Below, piece after piece: positions 36,777 to 49,079 of a stretch of 64,000 bases of DNA. How positions within the stretch are numbered: the first letter of the stretch is position 1; each line of letters starts with the position of its first letter. Location of the stretch: assembly GCA_008933765.1 (NCBI GenBank), contig WBUK01000017.1, positions 1 to 64,000 on the forward strand. Reading direction: 5' to 3'. A program made the translations under genes and the position numbers. The stretch comes from Ignavibacteriaceae bacterium (GTDB taxonomy: Bacteria; Bacteroidota; Ignavibacteria; Ignavibacteriales; Ignavibacteriaceae). The notes beneath the pieces are model-generated. The model ran no database searches, was not told the origin of the DNA, and was given only the letters and a program-made list of their open reading frames with translations.

Positions 36777-36941
36777 TAAGGGGCAAAGGGTTAAATTAGC
36801 AAGCCGGTAAATTTAACATCCACCGGGGAGTGTGATGGCGTTATCGGTTAGTTCATTAGTTGGGTAAATTAAAAACCAACTGCTCAGCAAAACATCCCAA
36901 CCTCTTCGAAAAGAAAGCTCTTCGGTTAAAACACTTAAAAC

Positions 36942-36975
36942 AAAAATAAGGGGCGCAAAAGCGCCCCTTATTTTT
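36942..36975. terminator. bidirectional intrinsic terminator
   Basis: A perfect 15-bp stem, AAAAATAAGGGGCGC (36942-36956) against GCGCCCCTTATTTTT (36961-36975), with an AAAA loop. A and T runs flank the GC core on both strands, so it can end both the convergent Mla operon (plus) and the cobalamin locus (minus). The remaining gap holds nothing I recognise. Confidence 0.95.
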
Positions 36976-37024
36976 AATCTTGTGCCCTGCTTAGTGCAGG
37001 GAGATAACAGATGAAGCTTTATCT

Positions 37025-37582
37025 TTAAATCTTACTAAGAGCGGGCACTTTCACTCTTGCGAACTCAAAGGCACCGAACATCACGGCGGTGTAGAGCAAA
37101 TCACCAAGAACGCTGTACTGATAAAATGGTATTGCAGCAACATAGCATTGGGTCAGACCGTTAAAATCGGGTGTGTACATTCCGGTTGAAGCCCAAACCG
37201 CAAAGTTCGATAAAACAAAGAAAACAACGCTCGAAACAACCGCCGCACCGACAGTTTTAAGCACACTGTTGTTCTCTCTAAGCAACATTCCGATGCCCAC
37301 AACTATAGCGAAGGCGATATAAACACCCCACATCGTACTGTGAAAACCAATTACCAAATCGGAAAGAAACATCGCTATCATCGGAATGGCAAATGCTAAT
37401 TTCTTATTCGTCAGATACGCACCACCAAACAGAGCCATAGCGGCAATCGGTGTAAAATTCGGTACATGGGGCACTATTCGCATTATTGCGGCAAGCAGAA
37501 TCATCCCAACAATCAGAAAAAGTCTGTTTTTATTCACATCTTTCATTTTTTTTCTCCAGTTCTTAGCAAAACCTTTTATCAT
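37025..37582 (-). CDS. DUF6580-type membrane protein, candidate cobalamin transporter S-component
   Basis: 185 aa as the longest frame; the likely start is Met13 (base 37546), because GGAG lies 8 nt before it, giving 173 aa. It has five to six membrane helices. The opening MRIVPHVPNFTPIAAMALFGGAYL is the conserved DUF6580 motif, and the size and helix layout resemble ECF-transporter substrate-binding subunits. It lies downstream of a riboswitch-controlled BtuB-like receptor and BtuG-like lipoprotein on the same strand, so I infer vitamin B12 (or a precursor) as the substrate across the inner membrane. No BtuCD or ECF energising genes are seen. A 237-bp gap separates it from the preceding gene. 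Confidence 0.75.
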   Translation of the reverse strand: MIKGFAKNWRKKMKDVNKNRLFLIVGMILLAAIMRIVPHVPNFTPIAAMALFGGAYLTNKKLAFAIPMIAMFLSDLVIGFHSTMWGVYIAFAIVVGIGMLLRENNSVLKTVGAAVVSSVVFFVLSNFAVWASTGMYTPDFNGLTQCYVAAIPFYQYSVLGDLLYTAVMFGAFEFARVKVPALSKI

Positions 37583-37748
37583 TAGAAGTGCAATTTAAGT
37601 TATTTCCGTCAAAAAATAAAGTCTTTTTGTTAAAATCTACCGGTTAAAATTTGCCGGTTGAAAATTATTTTCTCATATAGTTGAATTGTCGCCGGTCCGA
37701 AACTTAATACCGGTTCCGTACTTAACACTACTGCTCCGTTTACTACTG

Positions 37749-37836
37749 CCCCGCTTAATAATTAACAATCGTTATGCTTCTCTTAAACCAATACATTGGT
37801 TTCTGTTTGGTTCCCCCGCTTAATAATTAACAATCG
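37749..37836. repeat. duplicated 3' end of the beta-propeller lipoprotein gene
   Basis: CCCCGCTTAATAATTAACAA plus TCG occurs at 37814-37836, spanning the gene's stop, and exactly again at 37749-37771, 65 bp downstream of it. The extra copy still encodes ...ITIVNY and a stop on the minus strand. Confidence 0.92.
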
Positions 37837-38887
37837 CAACGCTTCCCGGGTTCAATCCGGTGTTAAAACGGCGAATTTCTCTGCCGTCAAGGTCGTACAC
37901 CACCATTTCCCCATTTTGAACGAAATCTTTCGGGTTACCGATATACAACAGCTTTGAAACGGGGTCAAACACCAACGAAAGCGGATACCCGTAAATTGTG
38001 TTAATGCTCATCCCATCAACCACCAATTCAGCAACGGGCGCCCGCTGGTTTAGGTCAACTTTTATCAAACCGAGATTGTTCAGCAAATACATAACATTAT
38101 CTGCCGTAACGATGGCGTCTTCCGGGTTTTGGGTTACGATAATCGAATCCTGCACCTGCATCGTAACCGGGTCAATCCTGTAAAGCGCACCGCCAATATC
38201 AGATGAGTCATATCTCCCCTTGCAGACGGTGTAAACAAAATTGTTTCTGTCTTTAACCAAATTGATCGGGTTAGTACCTACAGTAATAGTTTTAACAACC
38301 GCATCCGTCGCTAAATCTATAACAGAAACGGTGTTACCGCCGCCAAGCCCGCAATTTGCCACGAAAAGTTTTCCCCCGTGCTCAATAATCCCTTCGGGAA
38401 ACGAACCAACAGGAATCTCTTTTTCAATACTCAAAGTGTTGGCATTCACCTTATAAACCTTGCCCGAGTAACCTGACACATAAACCGTAACGGAATCTTT
38501 CGCCCAAATTCTGCGGGGGCTTGAGTTTTCACCGAGATCAACCGTTCCCTTTGACTTAAAGTTGTTGGTATTAAATATTTCTAATTTGTTGGAAACATTA
38601 ACGGCAACAAAGGCAGTCCTGCCGGAAATCACGATATCATTTCCTGTGTCGCCCAATTTTCTTGCGTTAGCCGCCTCAAACACATTCTGTGTAACCTGTT
38701 GAGTGGTCAGGTCATAAAAAGTAATGGTTGAGTTATTCTGGCTGAACAACCCTTCATTTAAAATATAAAGCCCTTTGTTCGCCTGCTCGATTGGAAGATC
38801 GGGTGCAATGGGATTCTCTTTACAGCCGGTAACTGTTAATAGTGTCAGAAGTGTAAAAAATGCAAATAAAATGCTGTTTCGTTTCAT
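37820..38887 (-). CDS. YncE-like seven-bladed beta-propeller lipoprotein, BtuG-like
   Basis: 355 aa. A lipobox LTVTGC (Cys22) marks it as a lipoprotein. The rest is a chain of about seven propeller blades with repeated patterns such as GNDIVISGRTAFVAV, KLFVANCGLGGGNTVSVIDLAT and VVKTITVGTNP. It is directly downstream (8 bp) of the BtuB-like receptor under the cobalamin riboswitch. In Bacteroides the surface propeller lipoprotein BtuG binds B12 and hands it to BtuB; position and fold suggest the same role here, though I cannot check binding residues. Its 3' end is duplicated 65 bp downstream. Confidence 0.85.
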   Translation of the reverse strand: MKRNSILFAFFTLLTLLTVTGCKENPIAPDLPIEQANKGLYILNEGLFSQNNSTITFYDLTTQQVTQNVFEAANARKLGDTGNDIVISGRTAFVAVNVSNKLEIFNTNNFKSKGTVDLGENSSPRRIWAKDSVTVYVSGYSGKVYKVNANTLSIEKEIPVGSFPEGIIEHGGKLFVANCGLGGGNTVSVIDLATDAVVKTITVGTNPINLVKDRNNFVYTVCKGRYDSSDIGGALYRIDPVTMQVQDSIIVTQNPEDAIVTADNVMYLLNNLGLIKVDLNQRAPVAELVVDGMSINTIYGYPLSLVFDPVSKLLYIGNPKDFVQNGEMVVYDLDGREIRRFNTGLNPGSVAIVNY

Positions 38888-38895
38888 CGTTTCTC

Positions 38896-41241
38896 TTATA
38901 TTTTAGTGGTTATTGAAAAGACAATCGACCGAAGTGGCATCGGATACGACTGGATTATTTTGTAATTCTCGTTGAAAATGTTGAAAAAAGAGAGTGAAAG
39001 AAGCTCGGTAACCGCCCCGATCTTAAAATTCCCCGCCAAGTGGAGGTCAAATACATTGTTCGGAGCTATTCTGTACTTTGGGTCATTGTCAGAAGTGTAG
39101 AAAGATTCACCCGTGAAGCGGTGATCAATCCGGATGCTCAAGCGCTCGCTTTCCCACGAGAGGGAAGAAACCACCCTTTGTTTTGGAGAGTAAATCAGCT
39201 GTTTTTCATGGCTGCCATCCGCTGTGCCAAAGGGTGAAATGTTCACTGCTTCAGAGTAGAAATATGCTGCCTCAGCTTTCAACCCCGGAACAGGCAGCGC
39301 CACTTCAACAGATGCTTCAAAACCAACCGAGCGGGTTTTTGCAACATTTCGCGGAACCTGCAACCCTATTATCGAGGGCACCCATATAATTTTTTCTTCC
39401 GTGTTCAACCGGTAATAAGTAAAATTAACAGCCTCAACAAAGATGACCGGCTTCTGAATGACAAACCCAACCTCAAAACCTGAGGAGACTTCTGGTTTAA
39501 GATTACCTACTGTGAAAAGAGAGGAATAGTAATACTCGTTGTAAGAGGGCACACGGGCACCGCGGAAGTAATTTCCTTTCAGTGAAAGGTTTTTGTAAAA
39601 ATTGGGGGTTGTCGCTACACCGGCGCTCCACGAAATTAAATTTTCTTCCCTTGAACCAATCCCTTTTTGGCTGAAAATATCGTAGTTCAGCCCGGCGTTA
39701 AGTGTGAGAGATGAAAACCCAATTCGAACCGCCTCAAATTCCTTTTCACCTTTCAGAATAAAACGGTGAACTGTTCTCTCAACCGAAGTTTCGCGCCTTT
39801 GGTTTGAAAGCACCGTTTTTATGTCGTTAAGCGAGCCAAGCTCCAAACCGTAACCACCGGTTAGTTTTACTCCGTACAAAGAGTGATCAGCGGAAAAATT
39901 CAGTGAAATGCTGTTCAAACCGGAGCGATCGTTTCCGTTTCCTTTATACCACGCAAGGTTGGGGTCATCAAGATCGATCTGCTGATAATTGTAGGCAGCG
40001 GATATTTCCAAACCGGTATTATCCGCCGGGCTTCCCTTCAGCCTGAGTATCGATAAACTTCCCTCCGTACGGTTCACAGCTTGTGAGGAAGAAGTGTTGT
40101 TGCTTACCACGAACCCCGGAATTCCCGAGTTGAAAAGGGAATAATTCGTATAAAAATCCAACGAAAACGCCGCCCATGCCTGCCCGGCAGTAAGTGAGAG
40201 AAAGCTGCGGTTAAAGTGTGAATTACTTCTTTGTAAAACCTGCCCGTTAAACTCATAATCAAATTTGTTAGAAGACCAACTTCTTTCACCACTGACACTT
40301 AACGAAAAACCACCCTCCCGAAGCCTGCCTGAACCGGCAAAAGAAATCAGCCCGGCGTTATCGGTTTTAAGAGTTAAATAAGCACCGTTTTCTTTAACAG
40401 GTCGTGTGCCCAACGAAAGCACTCCACCCGCCGAAATGCTCCCCTCTTTTGAAATGGCAGAAGAAAATCCCGCGTAAGAAAGATCAACAATATTCACACC
40501 GGAGAGGTCAAATCCACCGGTTCTTATATCGTTCACCCTAATCCCGTTGAAGAGCACCAGACTGTTTTCAGCGCTAAGCCCTCTGAATGAAATTTGTTTA
40601 AGAGCCCCTGCACCACCGTATTCTTTTAAATTCAGCGAAAAATGTTCTTTAATTAGTTCAGGTAAGCCGAGGTTACCGCCCCATGGCATCTCCGAAAGTT
40701 CAATCTCTTTATTGTAAACCGAGGTTGAAATTGGCTTTTCGCCGGAAACTAATATTTCATCCAATTCCTCAGAAAGAGGGGCGAGAAATATTACGACAGT
40801 ATCACCGGCGAAGATGTTTTTATCTTCTTGTTTTTTGTTTCCCGTGCTTTCATTGGATTGGCTTTTCCCTGATTCATTCTCTTCTGATTCTCTGATATCA
40901 CCCTTGTTCTCGTCAGGCAGATTTTTTGAATTGTTGCTGAGTAAAACCATTTTAGTCCGGTAACCCGGTGCGGAAACAACAAGCGGTTTCCCGGTATCAA
41001 AAGCGGAAATATCCGCTACGCCGCCACTTCCCGCTGTGCGATGAGTAACGCCGTCGGATACCACTGCCGCCGGGATTGGCTTTGCCGTGGTTGAATCGAT
41101 AATTTTCATTCGGCTTTGTGCATACAACGACGCAAAACCGAGCATAAATAGTAGTAAATGTTTCAAGGTTGTCAGGGGTGGAACAAGGGAGGAAGAGGTG
41201 TAAATATGCAGGAGCATCGCCGTGTCTATTGGTTTGAACAC
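38896..41241 (-). CDS. btuB: TonB-dependent cobalamin receptor (BtuB-like)
   Basis: Up to 781 aa. The longest frame starts at GTG 41241; ATG at 41217 and TTG at 41166 are alternatives, and the last gives a clean signal peptide (KHLLLFMLGFASLYAQ). A carboxypeptidase-regulatory-like domain (about 43-155) contains a Asn/Glu/Ser-rich insertion (about 105-148). A TonB-box-like ELDEILVSGEK segment is followed by a plug (FRGLSAENSLVLFNGIRVND) and a barrel ending SIVFSITTKI. The cobalamin riboswitch at 41286-41449 immediately upstream identifies B12 or a corrinoid as the substrate. The BtuG-like gene follows by 8 bp. Confidence 0.9.
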   Translation of the reverse strand: MFKPIDTAMLLHIYTSSSLVPPLTTLKHLLLFMLGFASLYAQSRMKIIDSTTAKPIPAAVVSDGVTHRTAGSGGVADISAFDTGKPLVVSAPGYRTKMVLLSNNSKNLPDENKGDIRESEENESGKSQSNESTGNKKQEDKNIFAGDTVVIFLAPLSEELDEILVSGEKPISTSVYNKEIELSEMPWGGNLGLPELIKEHFSLNLKEYGGAGALKQISFRGLSAENSLVLFNGIRVNDIRTGGFDLSGVNIVDLSYAGFSSAISKEGSISAGGVLSLGTRPVKENGAYLTLKTDNAGLISFAGSGRLREGGFSLSVSGERSWSSNKFDYEFNGQVLQRSNSHFNRSFLSLTAGQAWAAFSLDFYTNYSLFNSGIPGFVVSNNTSSSQAVNRTEGSLSILRLKGSPADNTGLEISAAYNYQQIDLDDPNLAWYKGNGNDRSGLNSISLNFSADHSLYGVKLTGGYGLELGSLNDIKTVLSNQRRETSVERTVHRFILKGEKEFEAVRIGFSSLTLNAGLNYDIFSQKGIGSREENLISWSAGVATTPNFYKNLSLKGNYFRGARVPSYNEYYYSSLFTVGNLKPEVSSGFEVGFVIQKPVIFVEAVNFTYYRLNTEEKIIWVPSIIGLQVPRNVAKTRSVGFEASVEVALPVPGLKAEAAYFYSEAVNISPFGTADGSHEKQLIYSPKQRVVSSLSWESERLSIRIDHRFTGESFYTSDNDPKYRIAPNNVFDLHLAGNFKIGAVTELLSLSFFNIFNENYKIIQSYPMPLRSIVFSITTKI

Positions 41242-41244
41242 GGC
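41219..41244 (-). promoter_or_regulatory. hairpin between cobalamin riboswitch and btuB start, possible expression platform
   Basis: GCCGTGT and ACACGGC (41219-41225 with 41238-41244) form a 7-bp stem with a 12-nt loop on the btuB leader, directly before the ATG at 41217. It has no T-run, so translational rather than transcriptional control is the likelier reading. The role is inferred. Confidence 0.4.
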
Positions 41245-41285
41245 TGTTGGATAACTACCTTTTACGCGAAGGTTTATTCCTGAAT

Positions 41286-41449
41286 ATTTACGGCAGGTCT
41301 CCTGGCTTGAGGTATTTTGCCATGCCTTCCCAAGTTTTTAGTGGCTTTTATGGCAATCTGAGTTTACTGTTTCCTCTTACAGTTGCGCGACAGCGCCGGA
41401 TTCTCACCGGCTTCCCTATTCTTTCTGCTCCTTGCAGAACACCGTAAAT
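41286..41449 (-). ncRNA. cobalamin (AdoCbl) riboswitch
   Basis: Read on the minus strand, the element has the invariant core GCCGGTGAGAATCCGGCGC, the CGCGCAACTGTAA segment, GCCACT, and the B12 box AGCCAGGAGACCTGCCGT. The P1 helix is formed by CCGTAAAT (41442-41449) and ATTTACGG (41286-41293). It lies in the leader of the BtuB-like receptor and should repress it when adenosylcobalamin is plentiful. Confidence 0.97.
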
Positions 41450-41466
41450 GTTTTAGAGAACTGTCG

Positions 41467-41498
41467 CAAATCTAATGCTTTTTTCTTTTTCCTGCAAA
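41467..41498 (-). promoter_or_regulatory. Bacteroidota-type promoter of the B12 locus
   Basis: On the minus strand TTTG (plus 41495-41498) and TAGATTTG (plus 41467-41474) are spaced 20 nt apart, matching TTTG...TAnnTTTG. A start a few bases on would place the riboswitch at the very 5' end of the transcript. Confidence 0.55.
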
Positions 41499-48516: not shown

Positions 48517-49051
48517 AGACTTGACTTGGCAATCGCTGCAGTGTTGTACACGGCAGAGGAAAGTCCGGACTCCATAGGACAGGGCGCCGGGTAACACCCG
48601 GGAGCTTAGTTATAATGGCTGGGCTACGGAAAGTGCCGCAGAAAAGATACCGCCTCGGCTTACCATTTTTGGTTACGGGGTAAGGGTGAAAAGGCAGGGT
48701 AAGAGCCTACCGCACTTGTGGCAACACCGGTGGCATGGCAAACCCCGCCCGGAGCAAAGCCAAGCAGAAGGCATGCGCAACACTTCGGAAACGGGGTGAT
48801 GCGGCTGAAGGGCTGTCCGTCCGAGGTCTTCGGGTAGGCTGCACGAGGTGTGGAGAGATCCACATCCCAGATAAATGATTGCCTTCGGTCTGTTAAAATT
48901 TTACAATGAGTTTACACAAATGATATTTTTGCTAAAAAGATTAAATCCCCGTCCGGGTAGTTGATACCCAACCAAATTTTACGCTTTTTTGTGTAGATTC
49001 TACATAGAATTTTTCTGACCGAAAACAGAATCCGGCTTATAAGTCAGGTCT
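48517..49051 (+). ncRNA. rnpB: RNase P RNA (type A-like) with enlarged P19 arm
   Basis: The catalytic RNA that matures tRNA 5' ends. The universally conserved GAGGAAAGTCCGGACTCC lies at about 48556 and AGATAAATGATTGCC ends at 48883; ACAGAATCCGGCTTAT is at 49025-49040. P1 is formed by AGACTTGACTT (48517-48527) and AAGTCAGGTCT (49041-49051), with one G-U pair. Total is 535 nt, long for the class, because P19 is expanded. Its base (TTCGGTC 48884-48890 with GACCGAA 49017-49023) encloses 126 nt, including an inner stem TACACAAA/TTTGTGTA (48913-48920 with 48988-48995) and a hairpin GGGTA-GTTGA-TACCC. A TATATTTG at 48461-48468 may be its -7 box. Confidence 0.95.
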
Positions 49052-49079
49052 ATTGTTTGTATTCCACGGTAAGTTCACT

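Follow-up and report, generated by a model that had tools for sequence, protein, structure and literature searches.

The window analysed here is a stretch of 64,000 nt from an Ignavibacteriaceae bacterium (assembly GCA_008933765.1, contig WBUK01000017.1), and coordinates are given as window positions unless another locus is named. On its minus strand lies a locus headed by a cobalamin riboswitch, with the following features in the direction of transcription:

41467–41498, minus strand: Bacteroidota-type promoter TTTG-N20-TAGATTTG, an exact pattern match ahead of the riboswitch
41275–41461, minus strand: cobalamin riboswitch aptamer (RF00174; 112.5 bits in a covariance model search against a gathering cut-off of 31.5, covering the full model 1–189)
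38896–41241, minus strand: BtuB-like TonB-dependent corrinoid receptor (plug domain, TIGR01779, 8blw_A)
37820–38887, minus strand: BtuG-like beta-propeller surface lipoprotein (BtuG chains, DUF5074, lipobox VTGC)
37583–37819, minus strand: gap of 237 bp before DUF6580, without strong promoter or terminator
37025–37582, minus strand: DUF6580 membrane protein, a predicted solitary S-component-like corrinoid importer (PF20221, E 1e-57)
36941–36976, minus strand: intrinsic terminator after DUF6580, lying in the convergent gap, with a stem of 16 pairs and a T-run

No other cobalamin riboswitch was found in the window's genome. The promoter ahead of it reaches a score of 10/10, as do 13 of 300 random 280-base stretches, and the window as a whole contains seven perfect matches to the pattern where 3.3 are expected by chance. 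A search of the gap before DUF6580 for a terminator or structured RNA found none, nor any special fold, and the only strong terminator is the one placed after DUF6580. A promoter of its own for DUF6580 was also considered, but the best match in the gap (8/10) does not rise above background level. Given a gap without convincing promoter, terminator or RNA fold and a strong terminator only behind DUF6580, we think it likely, though it has not been shown, that receptor, propeller and DUF6580 share one transcript. An earlier note, made without database searches, had described a canonical riboswitch with a phylum-type promoter, a TonB receptor followed 8 bp later by a propeller lipoprotein, and DUF6580 ahead of a shared terminator; the computed anatomy of the operon bears out this description.

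In G002 and G003, which are close relatives, the matching gap measures only 84 bp. In the window it contains one copy (37749–37780) of a 32-bp direct repeat (91%) whose other copy lies at 37814–37845, 65 bp apart, and the copy inside the gap is a duplicated 3' end of the BtuG-like gene. Elsewhere in the window, a class A RNase P RNA on the plus strand (48517–49055) spans 539 nt compared to 367 in the model, making sizeable insertions probable.

The receptor's match to the plug domain falls just under the cut-off in a profile search, and its match to the TonB-B12 model TIGR01779 is weak (E 4e-11, far below the model cut-off). Its best solved relative is BtuB1 of Bacteroides (8blw_A, E 2.7e-23), and it meets the BtuB criterion of homology to solved B12 TonB-dependent receptors. 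The propeller gene begins 8 bp past the receptor gene, and the best solved relatives of its product include the BtuG chains 8blw_B, 8p97_B and 8okv_B (E 4.5e-36, for 8blw_B, to 2.3e-31), whose entries have been identified as BtuBG or BtuG (PMC10404256). By this homology and its place beside BtuB it meets the criteria for a BtuG, with corrinoid binding at the cell surface being inferred. Both proteins thus match solved chains of the Bacteroides BtuB-BtuG systems, in which a receptor and a propeller lipoprotein likewise stand under a cobalamin riboswitch, but those loci carry inner-membrane ABC transporters where the window has DUF6580 (Nat Commun 2023, PMC10404256).

The window's organism very likely uses B12, as its genome codes for B12-binding proteins that correspond in size to MetH (1237 aa) and methylmalonyl-CoA mutase (732 aa). 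Genome-wide family searches detected neither a FecCD-type (BtuC-type) permease nor a BtuF-type binding protein (PF01497) in this genome (G000) or in its congeners G002 and G003, and EcfT was found in none of the three; the window's genome is 90% complete and both congeners are rated 100%. The absence of btuF, btuC and btuD claimed in the earlier note therefore holds locally and, for BtuC-type permeases and BtuF-type proteins only, across the genome.

DUF6580 itself matches the PF20221 profile with 195.3 bits (curated cut-off 27). Its open reading frame begins at 37582, but homologues favor an ATG at 37546 behind a GGAG, which is likely the true start. AlphaFold models of the window protein (pLDDT 92.6) and of a distant member of about 29% identity (pLDDT 92.7) were used for fold searches, which returned FolT (probability 1.00, TM-scores 0.60/0.64) followed by ThiT, PanT and RibU for the former and ThiT (1.00), FolT (0.97) and RibU (0.96) for the latter. 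In either search, every match whose TM-score came near 0.5 or exceeded it was an S-component, supporting the resemblance that the earlier note had suspected, and CbiM appeared as a weak match in the search with the distant member. Foldseek E-values are weak (0.04–2), though the best-match probabilities are high (0.96–1.00), and sequence searches of the PDB, started from the single DUF6580 protein or from a profile, matched no chain, in the profile search up to E 10. The six-helix S-component fold is a model-based prediction for these two members.

Positive charge suggests that the N-terminus lies inside, which would place most conserved polar residues on the periplasmic face, the side on which S-components bind their substrates. 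These residues are found mostly in L1, L3 and the adjoining helix ends, and the conserved set comprises R35, H39, N42, D75, H81, Y88, N126 and W130, with His81 of the L3 loop being replaced by Tyr or Ser in some members. In a deep-branching subfamily the R, N, D and Y are retained, whereas H39 and H81 are not both kept; its riboswitch-linked loci with longer L1 and L3 loops are L157, L161, L162, L163, L165, L169 and L175. Some genomes (e.g., G118) hold a deep-branching copy together with an unlinked copy of the main group.

The predicted fold and the outward-facing conserved residues are shared with ECF S-components such as FolT, ThiT, RibU and CbrT, and DUF6580 might accordingly be an S-component sharing an ECF module whose genes lie at another place in the genome. 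Besides the fold, the presence of EcfT in 10 of 165 DUF6580 genomes speaks for this first alternative. Against it stand the lack of EcfT in the window's genome, in the near-complete G002 and G003 and in the remaining 155 of the 165, as well as the AxxxA docking motif of helix 1, which is found in only 18 of 105 members. With module and docking motif missing and no detectable sequence similarity, DUF6580 is not a classical ECF S-component, and we reject a shared module on the absence of EcfT as very unlikely. Separately, three EcfT-like matches (G276:C72:3525-4100, G165:C12:40727-41299 and G211:C6:541608-542159) each read through one in-frame TGA and could possibly be decayed genes or cases of recoding.

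The closest functional parallel is BtuM, a protein of about 20 kDa with six helices and both ends predicted to be cytosolic that is linked to BtuB, is found mainly where the genome lacks an ECF module and substitutes for BtuCDF (Rempel et al. 2018, PMC6072759); DUF6580 is alike in these respects. Residues H28, D67, C80 and Y85 of BtuM and H39, D75, H81 and Y88 of DUF6580 follow one another in the same order (PMC6072759), a parallel that is inferred. Yet DUF6580 shows no sequence similarity to BtuM in a search of its profile against all PDB chains, and it lacks the invariant L3 cysteine of BtuM, with the main group mostly having His. We therefore do not file DUF6580 as BtuM, which is known mostly from Proteobacteria, whereas DUF6580 was found here mostly in Bacteroidota.

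The earlier note had asked whether DUF6580 genes elsewhere lie near cobalamin riboswitches or B12 genes and had named a lack of such association as what would refute it. Our survey found the opposite. In the window's own family (f1), a riboswitch lies 2.1–4.0 kb upstream on the same strand in 27 of 34 DUF6580 genomes, and the upstream region of one further genome is cut by a contig end. Outside this family, counting one genome per genus, a riboswitch within 5.5 kb upstream was found in 26 of 69 genera from 13 further families (0.08 expected), so that the linkage spans 14 families of the phylum in all; in eight of these 26 genera the riboswitch sits 60–173 bp before DUF6580 itself. Two SAR324 loci likewise have a riboswitch upstream of DUF6580. 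Neighbors of DUF6580 include BtuF-type proteins, CobU and DUF71, the last of which has an earlier predicted role in B12 salvage and is frequently found beside B12 transporter genes (PMC3541065). Three loci, all from genomes without full-length FecCD, illustrate these arrangements:

L157, 2739–6150: riboswitch, DUF6580, BtuF, CobU, DUF71
L168, 2350–7180: riboswitch, DUF71, receptor, BtuF, DUF6580
L175, 1439–5354: riboswitch, receptor, DUF6580, BtuF

A bolder reading, no more than possible at present, is that in some lineages a BtuF-type protein feeds a lone S-component-like DUF6580 without FecCD and without a dedicated ATPase.

Cobalamin riboswitches also control the uptake of cobalt and of precursors. 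As a second alternative, DUF6580 could import, under B12 control, not cobalamin but a related substrate, for instance cobinamide or another precursor, or cobalt. This is favored by the operon with CobU, a cobinamide salvage enzyme, and by the weak fold match to CbiM. However, cobalt would leave both the near-exclusion of BtuC-type permeases described below and the pairing with BtuB, BtuG and BtuF unexplained, and cobinamide is itself a corrinoid and as such compatible with our main reading. We consider this alternative very improbable.

DUF6580 and BtuCDF share operon neighbors (riboswitch, BtuB, BtuF and DUF71) and are here proposed for the same step, but they are unrelated proteins that seldom meet in one genome. 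Scoring FecCD as full-length at E-values below 1e-40, and treating the 30 genomes whose matches were all weak and partial as lacking it, we found among 392 Bacteroidota genomes 140 with DUF6580 only, 225 with full-length FecCD only, 25 with both and two with neither. The exclusion is strong (Fisher p 5.5e-77), though this value ignores kinship, and shared descent makes the counts non-independent. Families f4, f23, f26, f31, f33 and f43 each contain both states, indicating that DUF6580 and FecCD have likely been exchanged repeatedly. G410 shows this most clearly: it is the sole FecCD-free genome among 47 in f31, and its DUF6580 lies beside a riboswitch-led receptor gene. Among 59 relatives of the window's organism, nearly all members of its family have DUF6580 and no full-length FecCD, and every DUF6580 genome of this family lacks full-length FecCD except G029, which has both. 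FecCD is present in the sister families f2 and f3, in which nothing passes the DUF6580 cut-off, and in G020, a member of the window's family without DUF6580, the riboswitch precedes DUF71-BtuF-BtuC instead. FecCD permeases also serve iron and heme uptake, so their presence does not prove a BtuC, and the true BtuC count may possibly fall below the FecCD count.

The distribution also bears on a third alternative, in which DUF6580 plays only an accessory part in B12 salvage at the membrane (as a receptor, anchor or processing factor) and another, unrecognized inner-membrane transporter does the work. In its favor, the S-component fold is also known from receptors and MreD (PMC11109136), and many DUF6580 copies are not linked to B12 genes. 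But DUF6580 has no extra domain and replaces BtuC in operons, and 390 of the 392 genomes have DUF6580, full-length FecCD or both, leaving this alternative with very little probability.

Most DUF6580 copies of Bacteroidales and Chitinophaga-like bacteria have no riboswitch nearby, and in a tree the unlinked copies form mainly one clade that is nested among the linked ones. With so many copies unlinked, some members may act otherwise or be constitutively expressed. The whole-genome exclusion with FecCD extends over linked and unlinked cases alike, and the corrinoid role of the unlinked copies remains open. At several loci (L052, L057, L060, L078, L092 and similar) an unlinked DUF6580 immediately follows the gene for a carboxyl transferase (542 aa), possibly a propionyl-CoA carboxylase feeding a B12-dependent mutase. 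One genome has a second, riboswitch-less copy (G028:C1:3213279-3213773, L145) in addition to a first one in a B12 operon.

Our preferred reading, at a probability of roughly 0.8, is that DUF6580 acts alone as an S-component-like importer of corrinoids, working as BtuM does and without an ECF module, although there are no transport or binding data and the 25 genomes with both DUF6580 and full-length FecCD count against it. The earlier note had proposed a solitary or ECF-linked corrinoid transporter; the first half of this proposal is supported, short of a demonstration of transport, and the second is disfavored by the absence of EcfT. With the survey's riboswitches, BtuF, CobU and DUF71 neighbors and near-exclusion of BtuC-type permeases, the outcome that would have refuted it did not materialize. 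Under this main reading, the locus would be a riboswitch-controlled corrinoid uptake operon, presumably repressed by B12, in which BtuB and the BtuG lipoprotein would catch the corrinoid and pass it through the outer membrane before DUF6580, standing in for BtuCDF, moves it across the inner membrane. The corrinoid may be bound from the periplasm by the conserved residues of L1, L3 and the helix ends, perhaps with His81 or His39 as cobalt ligand, and may be released inside by toppling or a similar movement of DUF6580. Substrate, transport itself, binding site, movement and energy source are inferred only.

Neither the name DUF6580 nor PF20221 occurs in any paper of the literature searched, and searches on BtuM, ECF transporters and missing BtuCDF, judged from the titles and abstracts they returned, gave no prior claim of this kind; a plasmid search found nothing. 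The NCBI annotation pipeline labels the family "putative transport protein".

Many B12-dependent Gram-negatives have BtuB without BtuCDF, and their inner-membrane step is mostly unassigned (PMC6072759). If our reading is true, DUF6580 would assign this step in 140 of the 392 sampled Bacteroidota genomes, i.e., in over a third. It would also stand beside BtuM as a second family of solitary, S-component-like importers of B12, with no similarity detectable between the two in sequence, and would bear on the question of how a very large vitamin can be moved without a dedicated ATPase.
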